Below, piece after piece: positions 2,649 through 20,955 of a stretch of 64,000 nucleotides of DNA. A program made the position numbers and the translations under genes. Each line of letters begins with the position of its first letter. Within the stretch, counting starts at the first letter, position 1. Where the stretch lies: positions 1 to 64,000 of the forward strand of contig JAIXOQ010000031.1 in NCBI GenBank assembly GCA_027486675.1, given 5' to 3'. The notes under the pieces are model-generated. The model saw only the letters and a program-made list of their open reading frames with translations, did not search any database and was not told the DNA's origin. The stretch comes from Pseudomonadota bacterium. Lineage in GTDB: Bacteria > Bdellovibrionota > UBA1018 > CAIMNF01.

Positions 2649-3770
2649 TCATTCCTTCACGATGTCATCGCAAGGAGGTGGCGGCAGTTCGGAGAGGAGC
2701 GGTACCTCAGGAGCTAGCGACGCTTGAGGACGTTCAAATTTTTGTGGTTCCATCCCGTATGCTTTGGGTAGGGCTGGTTTGGATTGCGTTAGGATCTTCA
2801 AACGTTGTTCCGGCTCTCGAGTTGTTTCTGCGCCATAAAGAATAAGGGGCACGTTGCTGTCCCATTTCTGGGTCGGCATCTGGTACGTCGCGATGCGAGG
2901 CGCTTCGGGGACGAAGGTGTCCAAGAAAGAAATTTGCTGCCTTCCAAAAATTGCCTCGATCAAAAAAATTCTAAAGACAGCTTGGGTCCCGGGGTAGTTT
3001 TCAATGATCCCGGTCTGTGCATCGCGAAGGTCAATGCCCTTGTATTTTAGGATGTCGTAACTGAGATCGTACTCACTCTCCCTCCTAAACTTTCGAACCC
3101 TCTTAATTTGAAGGCTGTAGAGAACGAGTTTCTTGAGCTCTTCGTTATAGGCCAAAATGAAAAACCCCTTTCCATCGGGCCTTGGAAGAGTGCGAATGAG
3201 CTGGGCCCCTTTGAGGTCCAGGAGTTTGGGCTCTCCCTTGAAAGGGCCATAAGAGACATGAAAGTACAAACTCCGTCTTCCATTCCAATCGATCACGGAG
3301 AATAGATTGATCCTATCGCTAATGAATGCTGCATCGAGGTAGTTGCCAGACAAGATCTTGAGCCGCCCCGATTTGAGTTCGTAATATTTCTTATCCTTCA
3401 GAAGGGCATCGATTCTAAAAACATTTGTTTCAGAGTCCACACTCGTTCGGATTAAGATCGCATTCTTTGCATGCAAGCCCAGCCACGCCGAAGGAACCGA
3501 CGCAACCGGTAGATAGACGTATCCCTCTTTTCTCAAGGGGATCGAAGTGTCACTGATTTCGGTCGGCACTAAGCGGAGTGGTGGAAATCCGTTTGGCCCA
3601 AAAGCGAGCGTGAAGAGCTCAGGCTTAGGGCCCTTCTTTTTACTGCCTGCGTACACGAAAACCTTCGCCGAGGACGAAGTAGGACAGAAGGTCTGCAGCA
3701 CTGTAGCTAGAACTAGGAAGAAAGGGAGGGTGAAGCCTACGTGTTTCACAGATTTTAAGGAACCTAACAT
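2649..3770 (-). CDS. Secreted protein of unknown function
   Basis: 373 residues with a clear signal peptide (hydrophobic FTLPFFLVLATVL, likely cleavage after SSSAKA-like residues near 35). The mature part is rich in beta-strand-type segments and contains repeated hydrophobic-charged patterns that could form a propeller, but I recognise no family. The C-terminus is Pro-rich and ends PPPPCDDIVKE. The gene is convergent with the HNH gene (28-nt gap) and divergent from a small ORF across a Fur-box-like palindrome, so it may be iron-regulated. Confidence 0.65.
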   Translation of the reverse strand: MLGSLKSVKHVGFTLPFFLVLATVLQTFCPTSSSAKVFVYAGSKKKGPKPELFTLAFGPNGFPPLRLVPTEISDTSIPLRKEGYVYLPVASVPSAWLGLHAKNAILIRTSVDSETNVFRIDALLKDKKYYELKSGRLKILSGNYLDAAFISDRINLFSVIDWNGRRSLYFHVSYGPFKGEPKLLDLKGAQLIRTLPRPDGKGFFILAYNEELKKLVLYSLQIKRVRKFRRESEYDLSYDILKYKGIDLRDAQTGIIENYPGTQAVFRIFLIEAIFGRQQISFLDTFVPEAPRIATYQMPTQKWDSNVPLILYGAETTREPEQRLKILTQSKPALPKAYGMEPQKFERPQASLAPEVPLLSELPPPPCDDIVKE

Positions 3771-3803
3771 GGACTTAGTGTTAAGTCTCTGCCGGTCGGG
3801 ATT

Positions 3804-3809
3804 TATAAT
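3804..3809 (+). promoter_or_regulatory. Consensus -10 element upstream of the 41-aa ORF
   Basis: A perfect TATAAT. The -35 position 17 nt upstream reads TTAAGT, a weak match. The predicted start of transcription, near 3816, falls at the edge of the Fur-like palindrome, where a repressor would block polymerase. Confidence 0.5.
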
Positions 3810-3816
3810 CCTCTAT

Positions 3817-3831
3817 TGAGAACGATTCTCA
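3817..3831. promoter_or_regulatory. Fur-box-like palindrome
   Basis: TGAGAACGATTCTCA has perfect outer arms (GAGAA/TTCTC). It agrees at 12 of 15 positions with the 7-1-7 Fur operator TGATAATGATTATCA. It lies between two divergent genes, a secreted protein on the minus strand and a 41-residue ORF on the plus strand, just after a consensus -10 for the latter. The match and placement are seen directly; binding by a Fur-family repressor is inferred. Confidence 0.55.
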
Positions 3832-3865
3832 TTAATTGTAAACTGATTTATAGGAGGAACATCCC

Positions 3866-3991
3866 ATGACGCGTTCTTTGAAGGTCTTGCCGAAAGAAAT
3901 ACCTGAGTTACCTAGAGAATGGACGGAAGAGGCTGTGGCGGCCTTCATCGCCGCAGTGGTGCGGGCTTCAGAAGGCATCCAGCAAGAGTAG
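3866..3991 (+). CDS. Small 41-residue protein, candidate iron-regulated
   Basis: Not in the supplied ORF track because of its length. It starts MTRSLKVLPKEIPELP and continues with a probable amphipathic helix rich in Ala and Val to the end at IQQE. Its start is well supported by a strong Shine-Dalgarno AGGAGG with an 8-nt gap to ATG, a consensus TATAAT upstream and a Fur-like operator between them. There is no signal peptide or Cys, and no recognised family. It is convergent with the PBP1b gene 17 nt away. Sequence context, not similarity, is the evidence that it is a gene. Confidence 0.6.
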   Translation: MTRSLKVLPKEIPELPREWTEEAVAAFIAAVVRASEGIQQE

Positions 3992-4008: not shown

Positions 4009-6318
4009 CTACTTTGCCGCGGTTGCAGCATTCTCAAACGAATCGGCACAGGTCGCCTCAAAGCGGTCCTCCTGTGACGCGATGATTTTCTCGATCACAA
4101 CTTGGGATTCGGAACAGCCCGATTTTGCGCGTTGTCCTGTGTGGGCGTCTAACCTCGCTTCAATGAGATGTTCACTGACTTCAAATGGGAGGGGTGGTTC
4201 ATCTCGAAGTGATGTATTCATCGCGCGTATCCAAATGGGTAATGCTGCATTCGCGCCCGTCAGCTTAAGACTTTTTTTCGCAGCTGTTCCTTGGTCAAAG
4301 CCTATCCACAAAACAGTCAGTAACTGAGGCGTGTACCCCGCAAACCAAGCGTCTCGGTATTCATTGGTGGTCCCTGTTTTTCCTGCAGCTGGCCGATCAA
4401 AGCCCATCGAGCCTGCAGCCCTTGCTGTTCCGTCTTGAAACACATCTTGCATAAGATCAGTCATGAGATCCGCAACACCGGGTTCAATCCGTTCACGCGG
4501 ATCGAATTCCCGTGTGTAAAGGCTTTGTCCTGTGGGTTCAGTGATCGAAAGCACGACACTTAAAGAGTCACGTCTGCCATGGTTGGCGAGAGTTGTGTAT
4601 GCGCTTGCAACCTCGATCGGACTCAATTCCGCTGCGCCTAAAGAAAGTGAAGGAATCGGTTGTAGAGTTGATTTGATCCCTAAGTCATTCGCCGTGTCGA
4701 TCACACTTTGAATGCCTATGATCTTCGTCAGCTGGGCTGCAGTTGTATTGATCGATCGCGCTAGAGACTTTCTAAGCGGAATCCAACCCAAGCTTTCTTT
4801 GTCATAGTTTTTTGGCTTCCAGGCGGGCTTCTTTGGGTCGTACACCCAGCTCCAAGAGTGGTCTTCGATCGGATAGGCTGCTGTGATCAGGCGATTCTTT
4901 CCATCTCCCGGCGTTCGCAGTGCTGCCGCATACACAATCGGCTTAAAGACCGAACCCACTTGCCTCTTCATATTGAGCACTCGGTTGAAGTTGGTCTGGC
5001 TGTAGTTTCTGCCGCCGATTAAAGATCGAATCGTGCCTTGTTGCGGATCCACACTGACGAGTGCTGCCTGCAAGGGGGTAGATGCATCGATCGCGAATTT
5101 CTTTTCTAATTCAGCAAGTCCGTTCCCTATGATCTCTTGAGTCGAAGCGTTCGCCTCCAGATCCAAACTAGTGTAGATCCTAAACCCTGCGTGATCGATC
5201 TCCGATTCACTGAAAGTTCCCTCTAAAACTCGATGGACCTCAGCTCTCACAAAGTCTACGTAATAGGGAGCTCGATTACTGGCCTGAGGCGGCGGCGCCA
5301 ATCGTATCGGATCACGCAGGGCTTGGTCGTAGGCATTCTGTTCAATGCGCCCGGTCGCGAGCATCCTTTCTAAGACATATCTCTGCCTCGTCTTTGCGCG
5401 CTCAAGATATTTGTGTGGATTGTAAAAGGCAGGGCCCTTGATCAACGCAACCATGAGTGCGATTTCACCTTTATTTAGGTCCCGGACGGACTTTCCGAAA
5501 AAGTGTTTAGCGCCTTCGGCGACTCCTCGGACTTCCAGCGCACCGATCTGTCCCAAGTAAACTTCGTTCAGATAGCGCTCTAAGATCTGTCGCTTCGTAA
5601 ACTGGAGTTCTAAGATCGGCGCTAAGAAGAGCTCATTTACTTTAAGAAAAACATTTCGCCCTCGTCGATCGATGAGGTTTTTGACGAGTTGTTGGGTGAT
5701 CGTGCTGCCGCCTTGCGAAAAGCTCAATGTTCTCAAATTGACCCACATTGCTCGTAAAAAACCTCTGGGATCGATGCCAAAATGATCGTAAAAATGTTGA
5801 TCTTCAGCAGCGACAATCGCGTCTCCAATAAATTTAGGAACAGAAGAGAGAAGCACAGGTTCTCTGATCCTGGTGTCGGAAGCCTCCCCGGAAAGAGTGG
5901 CGACGAGTTCCGGTTCGAGGTATAGATCGGGCAATTGATCTAACTCGGTCTTGATTTCTGTGAGCTCTGCGTTTGATTCGGCGGATGAAAACAAAAGCTG
6001 AACGGTTTTTCCCATGGCGCCAAAGGTCGGGTGCTTTTCGGGAAGGAGTTCTTCCGGGTAGTCGAGCTCATGGAGTGTGATTTGAAGTGCCTGAGCATCC
6101 GGCTTGATGTCATAGCTCAGCGCTCTCAGCTTTCGCTCTACAGTGCTTCTGCTTTGGCCTGGGTGGAGGCGGGTCACACTTGCATAGACGCGAGTAGGCA
6201 GCTGATCCGGAATCGACTGGAAGGCCACGCTGACCTGCCGGTAGAGAATCACAAATATAGTGCCGAAGGCGAGCGCCAGGATCACTAAGCCAATCGCTAA
6301 CAGGCGGGATCTTTTCAT
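4009..6318 (-). CDS. mrcB: Bifunctional peptidoglycan synthase, PBP1b type
   Basis: 769 residues. It makes peptidoglycan from lipid II in the periplasm by polymerising glycan strands and cross-linking peptides. One N-terminal membrane anchor (about 6-27) is followed by a UB2H-like region (about 40-125) typical of PBP1b. The GT51 domain has the catalytic Glu172 in AAEDQHFYDH and the GGSTITQQ motif. The transpeptidase domain has SVFK with Ser456, SIN at 522-524 and KTG at 647-649. All catalytic motifs are intact. A UB2H domain usually docks the lipoprotein LpoB, which I do not see in the window. It is divergent from the barrel gene. The symbol is by family resemblance. Confidence 0.93.
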   Translation of the reverse strand: MKRSRLLAIGLVILALAFGTIFVILYRQVSVAFQSIPDQLPTRVYASVTRLHPGQSRSTVERKLRALSYDIKPDAQALQITLHELDYPEELLPEKHPTFGAMGKTVQLLFSSAESNAELTEIKTELDQLPDLYLEPELVATLSGEASDTRIREPVLLSSVPKFIGDAIVAAEDQHFYDHFGIDPRGFLRAMWVNLRTLSFSQGGSTITQQLVKNLIDRRGRNVFLKVNELFLAPILELQFTKRQILERYLNEVYLGQIGALEVRGVAEGAKHFFGKSVRDLNKGEIALMVALIKGPAFYNPHKYLERAKTRQRYVLERMLATGRIEQNAYDQALRDPIRLAPPPQASNRAPYYVDFVRAEVHRVLEGTFSESEIDHAGFRIYTSLDLEANASTQEIIGNGLAELEKKFAIDASTPLQAALVSVDPQQGTIRSLIGGRNYSQTNFNRVLNMKRQVGSVFKPIVYAAALRTPGDGKNRLITAAYPIEDHSWSWVYDPKKPAWKPKNYDKESLGWIPLRKSLARSINTTAAQLTKIIGIQSVIDTANDLGIKSTLQPIPSLSLGAAELSPIEVASAYTTLANHGRRDSLSVVLSITEPTGQSLYTREFDPRERIEPGVADLMTDLMQDVFQDGTARAAGSMGFDRPAAGKTGTTNEYRDAWFAGYTPQLLTVLWIGFDQGTAAKKSLKLTGANAALPIWIRAMNTSLRDEPPLPFEVSEHLIEARLDAHTGQRAKSGCSESQVVIEKIIASQEDRFEATCADSFENAATAAK

Positions 6319-6397: not shown

Positions 6398-7888
6398 ATG
6401 ATTCAATGGTTTACGGTGCTTGCTGCTTTTTCTTCGATCTCTGCTCACGCTCTCGATTTGGACTGGCATGGACAGTTCCGAGCTGAGACGAACTGGCTCT
6501 ATGGTTATTCCCATGGTGCAGTTGGACAGCCTAACGCCGCGACCGACAACGGATATTTCATACCGAACAACGGAGAATCACCTGCCAGCTTTCAGAACTT
6601 ATTCTTTAAGCTCAATCCAGACGTCCTTGTGAACGACAACGTCACGATACATAGCGAGTTCTGGCTAGGTGCCCCTGACAGCAGCTTTTTCGGGAGCAAC
6701 GCTTCATCGCAATTTTCTGATCGGCAGTATACTTCGAGTCAGACCGGCAACGCGGTCATCAGTGCTCGTCGGTTTTGGGCCGATATCGTCACCGATTACG
6801 GTTTGTTTTCTGTAGGGCGTGCACCTCTTCACTGGGGAATGGGCCTGGTCTGGAATCAAGGAAACGGTGACTTTGATCGTTTTCCCTCCAGCGGGGATAC
6901 AGTACGTTTCATGACGAAGTTCGGCTCGTTTCGGTTTGTTCCGGCCTTCACCAAGTATCGCGTAGGGTCGAACTTGGGAGGGTCGTTTGACTCCACCAGT
7001 GGAAGCACAGTTTCGGGATCATCTGGGATGGCTGATTACTCCTTGCAGCTGACCTACGACAATATAGACGAACAACTCCAGCTGGGTGTTATGTTCCTGC
7101 GCCGTCTTGCCGGTCAGAATCAAGATTCAACCACAGGCAGCTTAAATCCACTGGGGACCACCTCGGGTCAAGTGGCTGGCATGAACTACAATATCTGGGA
7201 CTTCTATTTTAAGAAGACCGTGGGTTACGTCGATTTTGCAGTAGAGGCACCTCTCACAAGTGGAAAGATTGGTGGAGCCCAATACAGTTCGGTCGCGTTT
7301 GCGGGAGAGATGAAGGCGCGGCTTGGGGATCGTTGGATGACCAAGGTTCGGGCGGGTCAGGCAGACGGACAGGAAAATGTGCCTGCAGGCGGCACCGCTT
7401 CGAAGATCACGCTCTTTTCTTTTCACCCAGATTATCGACCAGGATTCTTGATGTTTAATTACAACCCGCGGGCATTTTCAAATGCGCTCGGGAGCACAGG
7501 CTTGTCTCCATACGACTCACCGGTGACGAATGCTCGGTTCTTAAACTTCGAAGGCTCTTATAGTGTGACGAAGTGGGAATACAAAACCATGTTCACGATT
7601 GCTCAAGCGATTAGCACAGCATCGGATGAGGGCGGGTCATCGTATTACAATAGCTTTACCCGCCAACTGGAGACGGTTGCAGCGGGTGCTAAAAAACAAG
7701 ACAGTTCCATGGGTTTTGAAGTCGACACGGGAGTCGGCTATCAATGGGATGAGGCAACACGGTTAAATTTTATGACTGGGCTTTATTTCCCGGGTGCGTT
7801 CTACAAGTTCTCCAACAATGCAGATGGATCAGAAAACGCGCTTAAGACGGTCTGGGGTACGAACTTCCAGCTGAGCGTCAAATTCTAA
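6398..7888 (+). CDS. Outer-membrane beta-barrel protein of unknown substrate
   Basis: 496 residues with a signal peptide ending near SAHA-LDLDW. Long runs of alternating polar and aromatic residues, Gly/Asn/Ser-rich turns, and a C-terminus NFQLSVKF ending in Phe are typical of barrels inserted by the Bam machinery. It is larger than a general trimeric porin. The family is not recognised; a specific channel or a monomeric porin is possible. It is convergent with fliL, with a 2-nt gap to the FliL stop. Confidence 0.75.
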   Translation: MIQWFTVLAAFSSISAHALDLDWHGQFRAETNWLYGYSHGAVGQPNAATDNGYFIPNNGESPASFQNLFFKLNPDVLVNDNVTIHSEFWLGAPDSSFFGSNASSQFSDRQYTSSQTGNAVISARRFWADIVTDYGLFSVGRAPLHWGMGLVWNQGNGDFDRFPSSGDTVRFMTKFGSFRFVPAFTKYRVGSNLGGSFDSTSGSTVSGSSGMADYSLQLTYDNIDEQLQLGVMFLRRLAGQNQDSTTGSLNPLGTTSGQVAGMNYNIWDFYFKKTVGYVDFAVEAPLTSGKIGGAQYSSVAFAGEMKARLGDRWMTKVRAGQADGQENVPAGGTASKITLFSFHPDYRPGFLMFNYNPRAFSNALGSTGLSPYDSPVTNARFLNFEGSYSVTKWEYKTMFTIAQAISTASDEGGSSYYNSFTRQLETVAAGAKKQDSSMGFEVDTGVGYQWDEATRLNFMTGLYFPGAFYKFSNNADGSENALKTVWGTNFQLSVKF

Positions 7889-17316: not shown

Positions 17317-18548
17317 AAACCAAGAAAAACAGCCGCAGATATTTGATTTTAGTAGGAAGCCTCTTCGTCGGAGTTTTCTCTTTTTGGATTGGCCAACAGG
17401 TTGAGAAGCATCGCTTCTTTACGAAAACCGAATTTCAAAAGCTGATCGGTCCGTCCGTGACCCGAGATCACCAGCAATTTCTGAGCAACCGCATCGCGCT
17501 TGCAGGGGATGAGGGTGAGCTCACTCTAGATTACTCGATTGATGCATCGCTTCAGTTGCTTGCGGAGCAGATGTTTGAAGGTTATCGCCCAGACTACGGT
17601 GCTTTGGTCGCTGTAGATGCAGAGACCGGTCGAGTGCTTGCGGCAGCGTCCTATGACCGTGCCTATCAGCTTGCGGGCAATCCAGTCTTAGATGCCACTT
17701 TGCCGGCGGCCTCCGTCTTTAAAGTCATCACAGCTGCGGCTGCCATCGAAGAAACCAAACTCAAGCCTGGTTCGACCATTGCGTTTTCTGGCCGGGATCA
17801 CACACTTTATCGCTCCAATGTCTTGAAAGAAGAAGTGCGAGGTTGGCGCCGTGTTTCTACTTTGAAAGATGCATTCGCGCGATCCATCAACACGGTCTTT
17901 GGTCGTTTAGGGGTATTTAATGTTGGGGAAGCTTCGATCATTTCGTACTCCAAACGTTTCGGATTTAATCAGTCAATTCCATCTGAGTTTGAGATCGAAC
18001 CTTCCAAGCTAGGTGAAGTGAAAGACCGTTGGGGCCTTGCCGAGGTCGCTTCAGGATTTACGAAGAACACGACACTGAGCCCCATTCACGGAGCCATGAT
18101 TGCGGCAAGTATCGTGAATGATGGAAAAATGATGGAGCCTTATTTCATTCAAAGTGCGATGCGCTCTGATGGTCGGATTGTTTACCGAGCTGAGCCCAAG
18201 ATGTTAGCCCAAGCTGTTTCTCCTGATACTGCGCGTGAACTTCGGGAACTCATGAATGAGACCATCGTTTCTGGAACCTCTAGAAAAAGTTTTCGGGGGT
18301 TCTTTAAAGGCACCTACCGGGAGCTTGATGTGGGCGGGAAAACGGGTTCGCTTACGTCTATGGCGCCACACGGTAAGGTGGATTGGTTTGTGGGATATGC
18401 CATGGCTCAGGGCCGCAAAATTGCGGTGTCTGTCATGACCGTGCACAAGAAATATTGGACCGTAAAATCGGCATATTTAGCGCGTAGAACCTTTGAAAAG
18501 GCCTTTGAAGAGCTCGTTCGCCGCAAACAGAAGCTCGACGCAACCTGA
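17313..18548 (+). CDS. Penicillin-binding transpeptidase lacking a glycosyltransferase domain
   Basis: 411 residues. Start is TTG overlapping the GT51 stop (TTGA). One membrane anchor (about 10-27) is followed after a short stalk by a penicillin-binding domain with Ser134-x-x-Lys137 (ASVFK), SIN at 191-193 and KTG at 343-345. It should cross-link peptidoglycan peptides. It is shorter than PBP2/PBP3 because it lacks their pedestal/dimerisation domain, so it looks like the C-terminal half of a class A PBP or a minimal transpeptidase. The overlap with the GT51 gene points to a joint complex. Confidence 0.88.
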   Translation: MKTKKNSRRYLILVGSLFVGVFSFWIGQQVEKHRFFTKTEFQKLIGPSVTRDHQQFLSNRIALAGDEGELTLDYSIDASLQLLAEQMFEGYRPDYGALVAVDAETGRVLAAASYDRAYQLAGNPVLDATLPAASVFKVITAAAAIEETKLKPGSTIAFSGRDHTLYRSNVLKEEVRGWRRVSTLKDAFARSINTVFGRLGVFNVGEASIISYSKRFGFNQSIPSEFEIEPSKLGEVKDRWGLAEVASGFTKNTTLSPIHGAMIAASIVNDGKMMEPYFIQSAMRSDGRIVYRAEPKMLAQAVSPDTARELRELMNETIVSGTSRKSFRGFFKGTYRELDVGGKTGSLTSMAPHGKVDWFVGYAMAQGRKIAVSVMTVHKKYWTVKSAYLARRTFEKAFEELVRRKQKLDAT

Positions 18549-18593
18549 TTTGCCGGAATCCTGCCAAAAAGGTATGATATGGGGGTAGTCGTC

Positions 18594-19793
18594 ATGTCAT
18601 CAACTCGTGCAATTTACCTCGATTCCCACGCCACAACCCCCCTCGATCCTCGAGTTTTTGAGGAGATGAAGCCGTGGTTTGTGGAGCGTTTTGGAAATCC
18701 ATCTTCAAAGCTCCATCCTTATGGGTGGGAAGCGCTCTCGGGTGTTGAGCTCGCGCGCCGAAAATTAGGTGCATCTTTGTTTGCACCAGCGGATGGGGTC
18801 CTTTTTACCGCTTCTGCCACGGAAGCTAATCACCTGGTACTTCTTGGCCTCCTTCCGGAATTGAAACGTCGGAATCGGACGAAGATCATTTCGATCGCGA
18901 TTGAGCACGCATCCGTTTTAGGTGCGCTCGATGAAGCAAAGGCACAGGGCGCTGAAGTGATCCTTGTGCCTGTTGATTCTGCTGGGCGCGTGAATCTGAA
19001 TGCCTTGGGTCAGATTTTGGATTCTACGGTGGGGCTCGTTTCGATTGCTTGGGCCAATCATGAGGTTGGGACTTTGCAGCCGATGCGGGAGATCGTAGAG
19101 CTGAGCCGTGCCCGTGGAGTCTTGGTGCATTCAGATGCAGTGCAGGCATTTGGAAAAGTTCCTGTTGAAATGAATTTACCAGGCTCGCCCGATTTTTTAA
19201 CATTAAGCGCCCATAAAGTTTACGGACCTAAAGGTGCCGGCAGTGTGGTGGCCAGGGACGCTGCGACGTTGAAACTCCTCACACCCCAAGTGCGTGGTGG
19301 ATCCCAAGAATTCGGGCTACGTGCAGGAACCCACAATGTGCCCGCGATCGTTGGATTCGCGGCCGCAGCTGAGTTCGCTTTGCAGGATCTCTCAAGGCAC
19401 TCGGCCCAGATGTCATCCCTTCGAGATCAGCTTTGGAATGATCTCCAGCAAAACTTACAAGGAGCCGTGAGAAGAAACGGCTGTGTGGAGTGTTCACTGC
19501 CTCATTCTTTAAACGTTAGTTTTTTAGGCATCGACGGTGCCGCACTGTTTAGTCGCACGCGTGGTATCGCCGTATCGAATGCCTCTGCATGTTTAAATGG
19601 GAAGCAAGATTACTCTCAGGTCCTTGTGGAGCTTGGGGCCACTGAAGCCGCTTCCCGCGCAAGCATGCGCATTGCTTTGTCACCGTGGACAACGCCGGAA
19701 GAAATAACGCAAGCAGGCAAAATTATTGTTCAGGCAGTAAAAGAACTACTCCATTTTGAAATGAGCTTAAACACACAGGGAGTCAGACCATGA
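18594..19793 (+). CDS. iscS: Cysteine desulfurase
   Basis: 399 residues from the ATG at 18594; an ATG five codons earlier (18579) is also possible, but homology begins at AIYLDSHATTPLD. A PLP enzyme that takes sulfur from cysteine for Fe-S clusters and thio-modified tRNA. The PLP lysine is in LSAHKVYGPKG, and the catalytic Cys is in SNASACLNG, a slightly unusual version of the IscS loop SSGSACTS. The stop overlaps the start of the iscA gene (ATGA). Its sulfur could also feed MnmA, encoded 27 kb away. Confidence 0.93.
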   Translation: MSSTRAIYLDSHATTPLDPRVFEEMKPWFVERFGNPSSKLHPYGWEALSGVELARRKLGASLFAPADGVLFTASATEANHLVLLGLLPELKRRNRTKIISIAIEHASVLGALDEAKAQGAEVILVPVDSAGRVNLNALGQILDSTVGLVSIAWANHEVGTLQPMREIVELSRARGVLVHSDAVQAFGKVPVEMNLPGSPDFLTLSAHKVYGPKGAGSVVARDAATLKLLTPQVRGGSQEFGLRAGTHNVPAIVGFAAAAEFALQDLSRHSAQMSSLRDQLWNDLQQNLQGAVRRNGCVECSLPHSLNVSFLGIDGAALFSRTRGIAVSNASACLNGKQDYSQVLVELGATEAASRASMRIALSPWTTPEEITQAGKIIVQAVKELLHFEMSLNTQGVRP

Positions 19794-20122
19794 TTCAACT
19801 TACAGACAAAGCAGTTTTAGAGATCCGCCGATTAAAAAGTGCAGAGGAAACGAAGAACGATCCTTCATTCCTCCGTGTTCAGGTGATTGGTGGGGGCTGT
19901 TCAGGCATGAGCTATAAGCTCGGCTTTGAAGCGGGCGCCCCCACGGATAAGGATAAAGTGTTCGAGCGCGACGGCGTGCAGCTCGTCATCGATTCCAAGA
20001 GCTATGTATTTTTATCGGGTACCGAGCTTGATTTTTCGGATGGACTAAACGGTAAGGGCTTTGTCTTTAACAATCCAAATGCAAAACGGACTTGTGGTTG
20101 TGGATCTAGCTTTTCAACTTGA
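19790..20122 (+). CDS. iscA: A-type Fe-S carrier (IscA/ErpA family)
   Basis: 110 residues with the three conserved cysteines of the HesB fold, one in GGGCSGMSY and two in KRTCGCGSSF. It binds and delivers Fe-S clusters to target enzymes. Translation is coupled to iscS by a 4-nt overlap. Distinguishing IscA from ErpA by sequence alone is uncertain. Confidence 0.92.
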   Translation: MIQLTDKAVLEIRRLKSAEETKNDPSFLRVQVIGGGCSGMSYKLGFEAGAPTDKDKVFERDGVQLVIDSKSYVFLSGTELDFSDGLNGKGFVFNNPNAKRTCGCGSSFST

Positions 20123-20136
20123 TTAGGATAGGACCC

Positions 20137-20433
20137 ATGGCAAAAGTCACATTTTTACCGAGCAACATCCAAGTGGACGCAAAATCTGGACGCAGTTTGT
20201 TAGACTTAGCGCTGGATGCGGGTGTCAGCATTCAGCACGCCTGCGGTGGGTTTTGTGCATGTACGACCTGTCATTGTGAAGTGGTGTCGGGGGGCGATTC
20301 TCTGGCCCGGCCCGAGGAAGACGAGTTGGATCGTCTAGAACTTTTGGATAAGACCCCTCAGTCGCGTCTGGCTTGCCAGACCAAAGTGCGTGGATCCGCT
20401 GACGTCGTCGTGAGAGTCGTAAATGATGATTGA
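20137..20433 (+). CDS. fdx: [2Fe-2S] ferredoxin, Isc type
   Basis: 98 residues from the ATG at 20137; the track start at 20119 (TTG) lacks support, whereas AGGATAGGA precedes 20137. Four ligands fit C36-x5-C42-x2-C45 and C80, in HACGGFCACTTCHC and RLACQ. Adrenodoxin-type ferredoxins donate electrons for cluster assembly. The iscS-iscA-fdx trio lacks the scaffold iscU and the chaperones hscA/hscB, which must be elsewhere or replaced. Confidence 0.92.
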   Translation: MAKVTFLPSNIQVDAKSGRSLLDLALDAGVSIQHACGGFCACTTCHCEVVSGGDSLARPEEDELDRLELLDKTPQSRLACQTKVRGSADVVVRVVNDD

Positions 20434-20460
20434 TAGACCATTTTCTCGGTAATATAAGGT

Positions 20461-20955
20461 GTGCTGTCGACACTCCTCCTTTTGCTTTCCATCCAGTTCA
20501 GTGGCTTAACTCAAAATACCTTTGCTCGAACGTCCGAGACATTCTCTGCCGATGTCACTTGGGTGCGATGTCATGACGGGGATACCTGCACTTTTCGTGT
20601 GTTTGGAAAAAGATTTAAGGCGAGGATCGCTGGAATTGATGCGCCGGAATTAAAGCAGCCTTACGGACCTGCCGCTAGAAATGCACTGAGTGACATTTTA
20701 TCCCGGGCGAAACAAATCAAACTAGAATGCCGGGGAAAGTCCTACGACCGCAAGGTGTGCGCGATTAAAGCTGATGGCCAGGATGTCGCGGCTATGCTGG
20801 TCGCACGCGGGCTCGCGCACGATGCCCCGCAGTATTCTAAAGGAAAATACAGAGATGCTGAAAGTTTAGGACGGCGCAAAAAGCTCGGGCTGTGGGCTTC
20901 AGGCACGCCGCAGAATCCGAAGTGCTTCAGGCATCCGGCGAGTCGGGGCTGTTAG
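20461..20955 (+). CDS. Secreted thermonuclease-family nuclease
   Basis: 164 residues starting at GTG, with a hydrophobic signal peptide (LLLLLSIQFSGL, cleavage near TFA-RT). The staphylococcal nuclease-like OB fold has DGDTCTFRVFGK, the Arg in RIAGIDAPE, and KSYDRKVC. These supply the Ca-binding Asp and catalytic Arg pair. It would degrade nucleic acid outside the cytoplasm, which suits a bacterium feeding on prey DNA, though that use is inference. Four cysteines in the mature part could form disulfides. Confidence 0.85.
   Translation: MLSTLLLLLSIQFSGLTQNTFARTSETFSADVTWVRCHDGDTCTFRVFGKRFKARIAGIDAPELKQPYGPAARNALSDILSRAKQIKLECRGKSYDRKVCAIKADGQDVAAMLVARGLAHDAPQYSKGKYRDAESLGRRKKLGLWASGTPQNPKCFRHPASRGC

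Follow-up and report, generated by a model that had tools for sequence, protein, structure and literature searches.

Which gene is served by the palindrome that lies over a promoter at positions 3815–3833 of the window, the window being the whole stretch of 64,000 nucleotides that was analysed? The site has a small open reading frame (ORF) on one side and the gene for a secreted protein, read in the opposite direction, on the other. The preferred reading, held at a probability of roughly 0.6, is an iron-repressed micro-gene: an operator for the ferric uptake regulator (Fur) placed over the promoter of a 41-aa peptide, a tiny protein that the bacterium probably makes when iron is short. The features involved are as follows.

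3781–3809, plus strand: promoter-like pair read directly, a weak -35 TTAAGT, 17 nt and the -10 hexamer TATAAT
3815–3833, no strand assigned: candidate Fur operator ATTGAGAACGATTCTCATT across the expected start of transcription, from matrix and mismatch scans
3816–3844, plus strand: alternative promoter TTGAGA-17-TAAACT overlapping the operator, from a consensus scan (9/12)
3852–3857, plus strand: Shine-Dalgarno sequence (SD) AGGAGG, with an 8-nt spacer to the ATG
3866–3991, plus strand, stop included: 41-codon ORF, probable small protein, judged by SD, codon usage and chance estimate
2649–3770, minus strand: divergent orphan gene for 373 aa with a signal-peptide-like N-terminus, possible second target of the operator
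3802–3807, minus strand: -10-like hexamer TATAAA of the divergent gene, read directly on the reverse strand

Direct reading of the plus strand finds TATAAT, the palindrome, AGGAGG and an ATG-initiated 41-codon ORF all present and in the order that an earlier note on this DNA had claimed. The -10 hexamer occupies 3804–3809; its -35 partner matches the consensus at only 3/6 positions, yet the 17-nt spacing is correct. The palindrome begins after a gap of 5 nt, with the predicted start of transcription beneath it, and its core has a 7-1-7 layout (TGAGAAC-G-ATTCTCA, 3817–3831) with one mismatch between the arms. The consensus scan prefers the alternative promoter, which begins within the operator and finishes 11 nt past it. 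With two candidate plus-strand promoters, the start of transcription is uncertain, and the operator overlaps the promoter region of either. The ORF runs from the ATG at 3866 to a TAG at 3989–3991 and its 41-aa product is MTRSLKVLPKEIPELPREWTEEAVAAFIAAVVRASEGIQQE.

The identity of the operator was approached through iron genes in related genomes. A search for FeoB across 55 genomes from the order supplied the upstream regions, which were scanned for the palindrome. The same palindrome stands at feoA in all ten same-family loci with an intact upstream region, with 1–4 mismatches where shuffled sequence gives about 7; in 10/10 it lies across the feoA start region, and in 9/10 its distance from FeoB is almost the same. 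Outside the family it was found at feoA in 0/19 loci of order-mates, where the closest sequences had 6 or more mismatches. In the feoAB loci of the family (L160–L170, L174) the Fur box and the start codon of feoA overlap, a layout that none of the examined order-mates has.

A weight matrix built from the feoA sites of ten relatives, with the window's own genome held out, gives the window site 28.1 bits, within the range of the training sites (23.7–31.8), and the runner-up in the 64-kb window 10.0 bits. In the 64 kb there is a single occurrence of the core pattern TGANAANNNTTNTCA, against 0.09 expected. Within two mismatches of AATGAGAATNATTCTCATT, the window site stands alone in the 2.7 Mb genome (reversed control, 0), and the remaining own-genome sites within three mismatches lie within coding sequence or upon a start codon. 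Outside the window, the own genome was covered by pattern scans and, on selected stretches, by the matrix; among the own-genome sites scored in this way, the window site appears to be the best-scoring Fur operator.

The own genome also carries a degenerate version of the palindrome, CTTGAGAATGTCTCTCAAC, at feoA, and a box, ATTGAGAATCAATATCAAT, of 25.2 bits by the feoA matrix that ends 4 nt upstream of a reading frame encoding 713 aa. The product, a TonB-dependent receptor, has a TonB-receptor plug domain:

L052:177–2341 (own genome, G000:C28, about 18323–20487): TonB-dependent receptor, 713 aa, with the Fur-like box directly upstream

In the relative G010, a palindrome site lies upstream of tonB. 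The earlier note had called the palindrome Fur-like and had proposed a scan for further copies; copies at relatives' feoA, at tonB in G010 and at the own-genome receptor back the name, and the assignment of 3815–3833 as a Fur operator is well supported by these comparisons of sequence.

Several other palindromes were recorded. One, GTTGATAATAATTATCAAC, at 1916–1934 of L059 (G000:C15), lies about 18 nt 5′ of the ATG that probably starts an orphan protein (L059:191–1936, minus strand); the protein has about 570 aa, resembles a signal peptide at its start and has no Pfam match. In G006, a cysS-like gene has a Fur-like box ATAGAGAATAATTCTCATT (L066:1501–1519, 21.4 bits by the feoA matrix) at its start. 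At L062, L064, L065, L068 and L072 a near-identical palindrome, which reads (A)TGAGAACGATTCTCATT or, in G008, ATGAGATTCATTCTCATT, lies on the start codon (MRTILIL or MRFILIL) of a secreted-protein gene adjoining a subtilase-like gene; it may owe its form to coding coincidence or be a Fur operator that covers a start codon as at feoA. Matches to ATGAGAACGATTCTCATT in G001, G003, G009 and G012 lie on MRTILIL start codons, a possible coding coincidence, and were excluded from the evidence for the operator.

Fur-family boxes resemble one another, and the operator might instead answer to a different member of that family, a metal or redox regulator such as Zur or PerR. The own assembly contains one Fur-family gene that could be found (G000:C33:4354–4710), and by sequence its product is nearest to the ferric uptake regulators; because the assembly is 95% complete, a further family member could be absent from it, which leaves room for another regulator. 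The genes marked by the box, feoAB, tonB and a TonB receptor, speak against Zur and PerR, and this assignment is very improbable.

Comparison with published sites points the same way. The Escherichia coli Fur box has the consensus GATAATGATAATCATTATC (PMC4506495), and a survey of delta-proteobacteria gives the feoAB dFUR box as WTGAAAATNATTTTCAW in a 17-bp frame (PMC545781). The window box is like these published boxes in its 17–19 bp palindrome frame and its promoter position (PMC4506495, PMC545781), and the class of targets in the window's family (feoAB, tonB, TonB receptor) is the same as that given there. The family variant WTGAGAATNATTCTCAW, a predicted site, departs from known Fur boxes in having G/C at one position per arm.

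A second question is whether the 41-codon ORF is a gene. The window has 493 ATG ORFs of 30–100 aa, and this is the sole one with an SD match of at least 6 nt, a feature found in 2/51 large genes when these are judged at the start of the longest ORF. Its codon score of 0.129 equals the gene median (genes 0.117 ± 0.098; off-frame ORFs −0.114 ± 0.125, of which 5/124 reach its score). By first-order Markov simulation, the chance of an ORF of at least 41 aa in the interval is 0.038, and of one with the SD as well 0.0017. The unique six-base SD, the gene-like codon usage and this low joint chance make the ORF probably real and protein-coding.

The proposal of the earlier note that it encodes a protein thus gains from the SD and codon statistics, and finds no homologue to stand on in 369 phylum genomes. 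The set searched held the own genome as the sole representative of its genus, and neither the 57 other class members, the 368 other phylum members (369 genomes with the own), nor plasmids or phages yielded a homologue. Searches of Pfam, NCBIfam and PHROGs returned nothing above chance, the one Pfam match at E ≤ 0.1 being a sub-threshold SAM_PNT. A 45-codon open frame in G036 that matches the ORF was rejected, as it is antisense to a dut-like gene. The product is acidic, with 5 K/R and 7 E in 41 residues, and a single-sequence AlphaFold model predicts, with fair confidence, a helix at 21–40 behind a proline-containing N-terminal half.

These data bear on three other accounts of the ORF. It might be what decay has left of a gene for a class IV aminotransferase, since weak matches to such proteins occur in four genomes (E 0.001–0.006 per genome). 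All four belong to one distant family and, being mutual orthologues, count as one, against about 3.7 matches expected by chance in 369 genomes at E ≤ 0.01; the ATG, SD and stop, all intact, are also unlike decay, and this origin is highly improbable.

Alternatively, the plus-strand transcript could act as a regulatory RNA, either a RyhB-like iron-sparing sRNA or an antisense to the convergent PBP gene, with the ORF incidental. Fur-repressed sRNAs are a well-known class, and the plus strand has no terminator near the ORF, the first terminator-like site being at 5660, so that transcription could run on into RNA antisense to the PBP gene. The missing terminator also counts against a discrete sRNA; the transcript region has no Rfam match and folds no better than shuffles (z = 0.39), so that neither a family match nor a structured RNA with terminator was found, and a strong SD with gene-like codon usage would be unexpected of an RNA. 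An RNA function is less likely, and as the whole explanation of the locus it is improbable.

Finally, palindrome and ORF together could be products of chance. The window palindrome is a single site, and coding coincidence also generates palindromes, as the MRTILIL starts of relatives illustrate. Against this, the site's 28.1 bits compare with 19.4 for the top score in 30 simulated windows, the operator is intergenic and placed at a TATAAT, and the ORF with its SD has the low joint chance given above; coincidence is scarcely credible as an explanation.

The most direct competitor for the operator is the gene on its other side. The TATAAA of this gene and the plus-strand TATAAT have an AT core in common, and the operator occupies the -35 position of the minus-strand hexamer, so that its promoter overlaps the operator. 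One Fur-bound site could therefore silence both genes, and it is plausible, from this layout, that the operator also controls the divergent secreted protein. The gene has no good -35 on direct reading and no clear SD in the scan. Its product has no match in Pfam, NCBIfam or PHROGs, neither relatives nor named genomes yielded a homologue, and its AlphaFold model (pLDDT 41) is unusable.

It has to be considered that the 373-aa protein is the true target and the 41-codon ORF an untranslated or unimportant coincidence. Envelope or secreted proteins are frequent Fur targets, and the operator centre is about equidistant from the two gene starts (54 and 42 nt). To these points are added the position of the operator at the -35 of TATAAA and the want of small-ORF homologues in the searched genomes. 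The plus strand nevertheless has a consensus TATAAT and an exceptional SD where the minus-strand gene has neither a clear SD nor a -35, and the overlap of operator and plus-strand start repeats the arrangement at relatives' feoA. Exclusive control of the secreted protein is unlikely, though it deserves serious consideration, and the two targets are not mutually exclusive.

On the downstream side, the convergent PBP gene is present throughout the relatives, its best named match being a Bdellovibrionales MAG at 37% identity; at the three relatives' loci inspected, no sequence like the small ORF lies beside the PBP orthologue. Further along, 6398–7888 on the plus strand encodes an outer-membrane-like protein with a weak relation to TIGR04551 (E 1e-16, below cut-off).

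If the micro-gene reading is right, its product would join small proteins of known Fur regulons. HemP proteins are small Fur-regulated haem-uptake proteins, and the 41-aa protein has small size in common with them, its own Fur regulation being predicted; the ORF has no match at E ≤ 0.1 to PF10636, the HemP family in Pfam, and no haem-uptake genes adjoin it. FbpA, FbpB and FbpC of Bacillus subtilis are small, basic, directly Fur-repressed and proposed to be RNA chaperones (PMC12871923). The 41-aa protein is likewise small, with Fur repression predicted. In composition it is acidic, in contrast with the basic FbpABC, and it has no family-level match. In delta-proteobacteria such as Desulfovibrio, an orphan hypothetical gene may bear the strongest Fur box of the genome, and such genes can be without orthologues or conserved regulation, according to an excerpt of that survey (PMC545781). 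Those cases concern other genes and lineages, and the excerpt describes none of 41 residues (PMC545781). Fur-repressed small proteins being already known, an iron-repressed orphan small gene of 41 aa would probably be an additional one.

The preferred reading of a Fur-repressed micro-gene suggests the following sequence of events. With iron available, Fe(II)-Fur would occupy 3815–3833 and bar RNA polymerase from the plus-strand promoter, and the divergent promoter would probably be blocked by the same bound protein. On iron limitation, Fur would be released, and the 41-aa peptide would be efficiently translated from a short mRNA whose leader measures about 50 nt. More speculatively, the peptide could serve as an accessory or adaptor of the iron-starvation response that works by binding a partner, co-induced with feoAB and the TonB-dependent receptor, and probably with the divergent secreted protein as well. 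The modelled proline-containing half followed by a helix would, again as speculation, fit an adaptor-like peptide. That this lineage-specific protein is both a principal Fur target and a new kind of iron-starvation effector peptide, perhaps coupled to the divergent protein, is a tentative proposal and a rather doubtful one.

From the comparison comes a model of the family's Fur box (TGAGAATNATTCTCA, over feoAB) that is usable for mapping the family's iron regulon. If the micro-gene reading is true, a main iron-responsive promoter of a poorly studied lineage would serve a gene below the size of routine annotation.
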